Source: an uncultured Ureaplasma sp.
GTDB lineage: Bacteria > Bacillota_I > Bacilli_A > Mycoplasmatales > Mycoplasmoidaceae
Assembly (NCBI GenBank): GCA_947039515.1
Contig: CAMQYY010000001.1
Coordinates: 190,902 to 254,901, forward strand
Length of the DNA: 64,000 nt
Direction: 5' to 3'
Of the stretch, positions 35,069 to 37,624 are shown one piece after another. The notes beneath the pieces were generated by a model. It saw only the letters and a list, made by a program, of their open reading frames with translations, had not been told where the DNA came from and ran no database searches. The position numbers and the translations under genes are program-made. Numbering within the stretch: the stretch's first letter is position 1; every line of letters begins with the position of its first letter.

Positions 35069-36328
35069 TTAAAATTTTCTTAATCTTAAAAAATTTTTCA
35101 TTTTTTCATTAAAAATTAATGGATTTATTTTAATTTTTTGAAGTTTTAAAGTTGTGAATAGATATTCTTCATCTTCCGGTCTACAAATCATTTCCCCATT
35201 TTCATTAAATGAAAAGTAATTTCTATCAAAAAAATCATGATAATCACTCTTCATAAGCAATCCATTATAAGGATCACTTGCTGAAGTCATAAGATTTTTT
35301 ATGCTACTAGTATAACCATCTTCTTTTGATTTAGCAATTTTTAATATTTTATCCTTTATTTGTCAAAAATTATATATGTGAGCAGCTTCTAATTCATTGA
35401 TTTTAGAGGACATTCCATCAATTTCATTATTTATATTTAAGAAATCAGAGTAATTATCATTGCTATCTTTAAGAAGATTTAATTCTATTCTGTTATCTTT
35501 AGTATTTTTTTTGAAATAATTTCTTTCTTTATTTAAGTTAGCTAAAATGTTCTGTGTCTCAATTTGATTTTCAATGAATTTATCATCTTTTTTAAAATGA
35601 ATATTATAAAGATCATTAATAAAATTTTCTATTTTTTCATTTTTTAAGCATTCAAAAATTAATTCACTATATGTTTCTTTAGAACATTTAGCAAAATAAT
35701 TTGTTCCATAATTTGAATTTGCATCAAAAAATTTAATACTGTCTTTATTCTTTATTTTTGTAATTGTTCTATTTTCATCTTTTAAATTATTGAAATTATA
35801 ATTAAAAAAATTTAGTGTTGCAATAAAAAGAGAAAATCCAAGATTTCTAGAATAATTTATATTTCTTTTTAGAGAAAAATTTATTAATCTTTTTATCATT
35901 TCCGGATTATTAAATTCACCTATTACTGTTTTAAAATTACAAGTAATTTCAAATTTATTTACTATATTATTTTTATCAAGTTTTGTAAACATAAGTATAC
36001 CTAGTGAAGACAATATTTTTAAATATTGTGTAATAGTATTATGAGCACATTCTTCTTTATTTGATGCAGGAGTGACATTAATATTATTTATATATATAGA
36101 ATACATGGTATTCCCTTTTTTATTTATAGAAACTGATTTTACTTCTAATTCTAATATAGGTCCCGATATAATTGATATTTTATTATTTAAATTTTTTAAA
36201 ATTGTGAGAATTGATGTATCTATATTTCATAATTTAGCTTTATAATTTTTATTTATTCCGTATTTTTTAAATTCAATAGGGTCATTAAAAATTGTTAATA
36301 TTTCATTTATTTTATTGTTCAGAGTCAT
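35069..36328 (-). CDS. Putative type II restriction endonuclease with HNH domain
   Basis: 419 residues. The C-terminal ~130 residues carry an HNH_2-type nuclease: E-A-A-H-I (about residues 317-321), then N-G-L-L-M ... H-D-F-F-D, with metal-binding H and N/H residues in the usual order. The N-terminal part is lysine/asparagine-rich without recognised fold and presumably recognises DNA. The ATG lies inside the 3' end of the C5 methyltransferase gene (17-base overlap, with its own AGGAG). The pairing indicates the endonuclease of that R-M system; the cut site is unknown. Confidence 0.8.
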
Positions 36329-37624
36329 TATTTAACTCCTGAATTTTTAAAATAACTGCAGCAATAACATTAACAACAATTGAATTACCAGCTTGTTGTC
36401 ACATTTTTTCTTTACGTATGTTTTGCTTTTTTATATTTTCATAATCTTTATCATCGAAACCCATTAATAAATAAGCTTCTCTATTAGTTATGAAACGATA
36501 GTTAGCCTTCGGTTTGCTCTCTCTCTCTCTCTCTCTCTCTCTCTCTCTCTCTCTGCACTAGTAGTTTCTAAAATAGTATTCTTTAAATTAATAACACCAG
36601 CATTAGGATGTCTATCTTGTTTAGTTGTTACTGTTCTTGAATATGAATATTTACCAAAATCATTGAGTTTATAATTATCTTCAAACATTCTTTTTCGTGA
36701 TTCTGTTCTATTAGGTCTAACTAAGATAGCTTCTTCTTTAAGTTTTTCATCTGTATAGTCTTGTCTTAAAATATCTTTTAATTCTTTTTCCTTTAATTCA
36801 GGAATTTTTTCTATTTTTAATGGAAAAAAAGATTGATTTTCATCAATAATTTCAAAATTTTTATCAACTTCAAAATCTCCTAAAACTGAAATAGCATAAA
36901 CTCTTTTTCTGTTTTGTGGAATTCCGAAGTCTTTTGCATTAAGAATATATGTTTTAGTTTTATAACCCATTTCATATAGTTCTTTTTTTCAAATTATATA
37001 ATCATTAATATGTCGAGAACTTAGCATATTAGAAACATTTTCTAATAATAGAAATTTAGGTAGTTTTTTGATTTTTTCTAATTCCTTTAAAATTCTTCCT
37101 ATTTCTCAAAGTAATCCAGATCTAGTACCATCACCTTTTTTCATTCCTTGATTAAACCCATGAAATGACCCAGCAACAGATAAATCTTGGCATGGAAAAG
37201 AATAAGTAATTAAATCAATATCTCCTATTGTTTCATATAGTTTTTTACCATCTATAGCCATAATAGAACCCATATTTTTAGATATTTTATGAGCTTTATA
37301 ATATTTTGTTTTTCTTAAATAATCCATTTGGATTATTCTTTTTATATCAGTTAATTCTTTACCTGAAAAAGAATGGTGAAATTGTGAAAAATAATTATTC
37401 ATTTCATCTTCATTAATAGTTTTAATTTTTTTTTCAAAATTAGGATAATGGATTGCAGCATAGGAAATACAAGCATCAACATCTCATTCACTTGTTCCGA
37501 CTATTTCATAATTATATTGATATGTTTTTTTTAAAAATTCTAATGCTTTATGTTGAGAACCAATTCCAGAAAAAGTTTCAAAAACTTTTAAAACTTTTGA
37601 TTCTTTTTTATCTTTATCACTCAC
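36312..37624 (-). CDS. DNA cytosine-C5 methyltransferase, phase-variable, frameshifted OFF at a (GA)19 tract
   Basis: The intact protein would be 436 residues. Motif I F-E-T-F-S-G-I-G-S (14-22), catalytic S-F-P-C-Q-D-L-S (Cys145), motif VI L-L-L-E-N-V, motif VIII Q-N-R-K-R-V-Y and motif IX R-T-V-T-T-K-Q-D-R-H-P are in the first frame. A CT run of 38 bases (36517-36554) encodes (Glu-Arg)6; this frame stops at 36488, giving 378 residues. The missing motif X (W-Q-Q-A-G-N-S-I-V-V-N-V) and Y-R-F-I-T ... L-M-G-F are found in another frame ending at 36312. Loss of one GA unit, or gain of two, joins them. Start GTG 37624 with AAGG upstream. Confidence 0.9.
36517..36554. repeat. Dinucleotide tract (CT)19 / (GA)19
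   Basis: A pure 38-base dinucleotide run inside the C5 methyltransferase gene between motifs IX and X. It is a simple-sequence contingency locus expected to vary by slipped-strand mispairing. Confidence 0.98.

Follow-up and report, generated by a model that had tools for sequence, protein, structure and literature searches.

The window, by which we mean the whole 64-kb stretch of DNA analysed here, contains a Type II restriction-modification pair in which an AG tract, changing in length by strand slippage, appears to switch expression of the methyltransferase. We put the probability of this reading at roughly 85%. The tract lies inside the gene of a C5-cytosine DNA methyltransferase and, at its sequenced length, throws that gene out of frame. 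Several observations together make phase variation very likely: the tract itself, homologues without it, a homologue with a tract elsewhere in the gene, four sister tracts in the same genome, the failure to detect MutS, and the length variation of GA or G tracts that has been measured in other mycoplasma methyltransferases (PMC9465063, PMC5476646). The window tract is known from one assembly of one strain; slippage of the repeat probably turns the gene on and off.

According to its sequence matches, the gene product is a C5-cytosine DNA methyltransferase of the M.MpeI type. Reading the gene requires genetic code table 4 (TGA = Trp), which the earlier note on this DNA had not stated. The open reading frame matches PF00145 (E=8.8e-45) and TIGR00675 (3.7e-39), and the closest solved structure by sequence is M.MpeI (PDB 4dkj, E=1.9e-47, residues 5-273). 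It contains the blocks FSGIGSQ (AdoMet), SFPCQDLS (PCQ catalytic), LLENV (ENV) and QNRKR (QxRxR), while the C-terminal GN block, QQAGNSIVV, is present out of frame. The homology to M.MpeI stops short of the recognition region, and as this region is unaligned the CpG specificity cannot be transferred. Residues 11-114 of the protein also match NF045953, a family described as a C5 methyltransferase N-terminal subunit. Some members of this family may be genes shortened by OFF tracts and not true subunits.

The tract reads (CT)19 on the forward strand, that is (AG)19 in the gene, and no other dinucleotide run in the window exceeds five units. The genome is AT-rich (23% G+C), and in shuffled windows even a (GA)6 run is expected only 0.01 times. 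The frame that starts at the GTG stops after 378 aa, at 36488. A second frame, open from the tract onwards, reaches its stop at 36312 and includes YRFITNREAYLLMGF...QQAGNSIVV, see Table 1. Both observations agree with the earlier note, which had described a 19-unit GA run that breaks the frame of a C5 methyltransferase, with motif X and the end of the gene intact in another frame. The note had also proposed that loss of one unit or gain of two would restore 436 residues. This holds for the loss (n=18, 436 aa), whereas the gain (n=21) gives 438 aa; other unit numbers lead to truncation. The tract was further said to lie between motifs IX and X. It is instead found after the SRTVTTKQDRHPNAGVI block and before both R.IT.REA..LMGF and QQAGNSIVV, which we take to be motifs IX and X in the usual M.HhaI numbering. 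The variable region of C5 methyltransferases lies between motifs VIII and IX (PMC3404938).

The gene thus holds a long pure repeat within its coding region, the unit number of which sets the frame, as is characteristic of slipped-strand phase variation. With n=19, the sequenced consensus is OFF. The description of a phase-variable C5 methyltransferase caught in the OFF state is therefore correct as to the enzyme, the broken frame at a long GA tract and the intact downstream part; its phase variability is very likely, judged from the evidence listed above. In a scan for promoters and terminators, the sites found were no commoner than in shuffled sequences. An inverted repeat lies at 37678-37701, about 54 bp before the methyltransferase start, with 10-bp arms around a 4-nt centre (AACCTGTTTA TTTA TAAACAGGTT); it is a possible operator or terminator.

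Table 1. Positions in the window of the methyltransferase gene and its tract, the overlapping endonuclease gene, and the tract-free methyltransferases.
Feature	Position	Strand	Basis or remark
C5-cytosine DNA methyltransferase gene	36312..37624	-	GTG start; frame broken by AG tract; PF00145, TIGR00675 and M.MpeI matches
Present ORF, 378 aa, closing shortly past the tract	36488..37624	-	table 4 translation
(AG)19 tract, presumed switch	36517..36554	-	TRF: 100% match, 19 copies
C-terminal part in another frame, holding both final conserved blocks	36312..36516	-	frame translation; alignment with intact homologues
Putative restriction endonuclease, HNH_2 / MAG4270 family	35069..36328	-	PF13391 5.9e-7, NF045952 1.7e-18
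Endonuclease AGGAG and ATG, within the last methyltransferase codons	36326..36340	-	ATTCAGGAGTTAAATAATGA in the window
Dcm-type C5 methyltransferase, tract-free	59306-60475	+	
Type III mod, tract-free	51944-53644	-	adjoins res 51002-51937 (-)

The 86%-complete assembly of this genome (G000) was searched for (GA)8 and the sites were inspected. Five long GA/CT tracts were found and all five are located in methyltransferase genes: two C5 enzymes, one Dam-like enzyme, one M1-M2 fusion and one Type III mod. Of the sites, one is the window gene, one the M1-M2 fusion on contig C2 and one the mod on C6, while the remaining four are ends of contigs. The three tracts that are unbroken by contig ends (window gene, M1-M2 fusion, mod) are all out of frame. 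The contig ends within GA tracts are the end of C2, the end of C4, the start of C6 and the start of C1 (L010, L011, L012 and L009), with 52-53 nt of tract each. The end of C2 holds a gene start, ATG AAA TCT AAC AAA AAC AAA TCT CTC..., and the end of C4 the remainder of the second C5 methyltransferase. This pairing is backed by genome G003 (L023), where SNKNKSLSLSL...SDDD is unbroken. C6 begins with MDKIRERE..., and C1 with RERERLSSNLTPFVKWVGG of the Dam-like enzyme, followed by a DpnII-looking gene; these two ends are paired by exclusion. No (CA)7 or (TA)8 runs were found in the genome, and MutS was not detected in the 86%-complete assembly. Searches with PF00145, PF01555 and PF02086 identified two more methyltransferases, both in the window and both without a tract (Table 1). 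The window mod is a paralogue of the tract-bearing mod on C6, so the genome carries both a fixed version of this gene and a switchable one. Divergent from the Dcm-type gene, a look-alike of a MutH/Sau3AI-type endonuclease, recognised by eye, is seen at 58803-59297 (-).

Similar tracts are frequent in the order: 141 of 298 sampled genomes contain at least one (GA)8 tract. We sampled 60 loci and took the longest ORF at the tract where one was present (59). Among these 59 genes, the Pfam family N6_N4_Mtase is matched by 22, Methylase_S by 16, DNA_methylase by eight and MethyltransfD12 by six, with single matches to EcoRI_methylase and HSDR_N_2 and some overlap between families. In total, about 52 of the 59 are restriction-modification genes. 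Three loci are without a confident match (L050, L051, L064), the first two of which carry NPPF, and a few are seemingly unrelated to restriction-modification (L047/L062, L052, L168).

The OFF state of the window gene could be an artefact, if the assembled tract is off by one unit and the gene is actually ON in most cells. The assembler did struggle with GA tracts, as the four contig ends demonstrate. However, at 38 nt the window tract does not reach the length of the broken ones (52-53 nt), and it is located inside a 269-kb contig. Moreover, the two further unbroken tracts of G000 are out of frame too, and so are 29 of the 40 tracts in relatives that are flanked by coding sequence on either side, close to the chance expectation of two thirds. 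The 11 of 40 in frame do not differ from one third (P=0.50), i.e. the sequenced genomes are mostly caught OFF, which matches free drift among three frames. We consider a miscounted tract unlikely.

The closest relatives found of the methyltransferase are from uncultured Mycoplasmataceae (73, 71, 69 and 61% identity) and a Ureaplasma MAG (53%), with remoter homologues in Mesoplasma and many Firmicutes. The close relatives at 53-73% identity have no tract in the gene. In L074, L075, L076 and L077 the gene is continuous and tract-free; L078 is likewise tract-free, but its frame is open only from 4272. At the tract site, L074 reads ETTDEVKANYRF where the window has ETTSA(ER)nESKPKANYRF, and the alignment with homologues shows that the C-terminal part beyond the tract is intact and conserved. 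Among 95 genomes of the family, close homologues were found only in G016, G021 and G007, and no orthologue has a tract at this site. By this comparison, the tract at this place is a lineage-specific addition. In G007 (L017/L080) a 19-unit tract interrupts the same gene nearly 300 residues earlier, so that within a single gene tracts arise at more than one site. The AlphaFold2 model of L074, with a mean pLDDT of 88.7, has a coil at the tract site, residues 354-365 with a pLDDT of about 92, between a strand (351-353) and a helix (374-380). Because the site is a coil in this model, it is plausible that an in-frame Arg-Glu insert would be tolerated there.

Next to the methyltransferase lies a putative endonuclease gene, so the two form a predicted Type II restriction-modification pair. 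None of the solved structures is a significant relative of the endonuclease (best E=0.11). It shares its first 17 nt with the 3' end of the methyltransferase gene, and the overlap with its ATTCAGGAGTTAAATAATGA arrangement is near-identical in five relatives (L074, L075, L076, L078 and L080). While the methyltransferase is in the OFF frame, no such break is seen in the endonuclease gene, which is intact; the OFF frame stops about 160 nt short of the endonuclease start.

These arrangements suggest the following mechanism. At 18 or 21 units, as at any multiple of three, the tract would encode an Arg-Glu repeat within the loop that precedes the final two conserved blocks, and translation would yield a complete enzyme of about 436 residues. 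Out of frame, the product would be truncated without these blocks and is expected to be inactive. In the ON state ribosomes would reach the point where the endonuclease gene begins, whereas in the OFF state they would leave about 160 nt earlier, so that less endonuclease may be made and self-cutting avoided. The same device would operate in the four other tract-bearing methyltransferase genes of G000.

Coupling matters since an active Type II endonuclease should kill a cell in which its methyltransferase is OFF. The endonuclease start inside the end of the methyltransferase, together with the ON and OFF stop positions, favours coupled translation; restriction would be switched along only if such coupling exists. 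Against it counts that the endonuclease start has its own AGGAG. RNA folding predicts that the ribosome site of the endonuclease is masked in the OFF state (unpaired 0.20), yet no more strongly than with shuffled flanks (56/300). The whole 241-nt region folds more stably than shuffles (z -3.0), and a hairpin at the endonuclease start is not conserved in relatives. The gene arrangement thus suggests coupling and, given this AGGAG and masking at chance level, does not prove it.

The survival of cells with an intact endonuclease would also be explained if the OFF form still yields active enzyme, either from the 378-aa part and a separately started C-terminal piece, or by polymerase or ribosome slippage on the tract. 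There are split C5 methyltransferases, namely M.AquI and M.EcoHK31I, and M.SssI fragments can complement one another, but the best complementation is obtained when the split separates motif VIII from the recognition domain, which is not where the tract lies (PMC3404938). In an unsystematic look, no obvious start was noticed for the short C-terminal frame. GA repeats are not known as classic slippery sites, which counts against slippage on the tract. We judge an active OFF form quite improbable. A decaying pseudogene fixed OFF, in which the tract is now irrelevant, is no better placed: the OFF form is the only one seen for the window methyltransferase, but there is no further stop or frame change across its 436 codons, its C-terminus and the overlap with the intact endonuclease are conserved, and the sister tracts in the same gene class argue for maintenance.

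Switching by slippage, the reading we prefer, has precedents. In M. agalactiae, length changes have been measured both for the GA tracts of mod and for the G tracts of CpG methyltransferases (PMC9465063). Poly(GA) is cited there for the C5 enzymes of M. pulmonis and M. crocodyli. Like the window gene, these CpG methyltransferases are mollicute C5 enzymes in which a coding-region repeat, poly-G or poly-GA, sets the frame, and most copies are OFF (PMC9465063). Their tract is located mid-gene, whereas that of the window gene is near the 3' end, ahead of the last two conserved blocks; the window gene also differs in that its end is overlapped by an HNH endonuclease gene. The Type III mod of MmyCI in M. 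mycoides subsp. capri is OFF with (AG)12 and ON with (AG)10, activity following tract length, and it overlaps its res by 14 nt (PMC3498834). It shares the AG tract and the frame switch with the window gene, but it is an adenine enzyme, and loss of Mod also disables Res, so that OFF is safe, unlike in a Type II pair. In Ca. Mycoplasma girerdii, reads show that dinucleotide tracts in restriction-modification genes vary in a natural population; the genes are hsdS, Type III mod and BspA-like genes, and the tracts have up to 12 units of several motifs (PMC5476646). In contrast, the tracts of G000 are GA only, reach at least 26 units and are all in methyltransferases. A TA repeat is known from the M1-M2 fusion of M. 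hominis (PMC12898733).

Switching by poly(GA) has already been published for methyltransferases of mycoplasmas, among them C5 enzymes, and the window gene adds one more case. It is less common for a single repeat class to act in five methyltransferases of differing types within the same genome, and for several tract genes to be part of Type II pairs with intact endonuclease genes. A wider reading would make (GA)n a dedicated switch of five methyltransferases of m5C and m6A types, in five restriction-modification systems, with up to 32 methylation states per clone, and with the Type II endonucleases silenced along by translational coupling so that OFF cells spare their own DNA. We hold this wider reading at even odds. 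If the tracts vary, each clone of this bacterium with its small genome could hold mixed methylation and restriction states. This would matter for phage defence, for the uptake of DNA and for gene regulation in a setting with few classical regulators. The gene order poses a testable question, namely how a Type II methyltransferase can be OFF when the endonuclease next to it is intact. Since long GA tracts fall so strongly within restriction-modification genes across the order, screening assemblies for them is a simple means of listing switchable epigenetic genes.

Other loci were noticed in passing. Near the second C5 methyltransferase, L011 2499-3716 resembles a BspA-like leucine-rich repeat surface protein. 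In the window, a 102-bp repeat (5.9 copies, 91% alike) is located in an apparent coding region at 44246-44851 (+). A SocA/Panacea antitoxin-like gene at 42141-42611 (+) adjoins a downstream partner without a recognised family at 42611-43072 (+).
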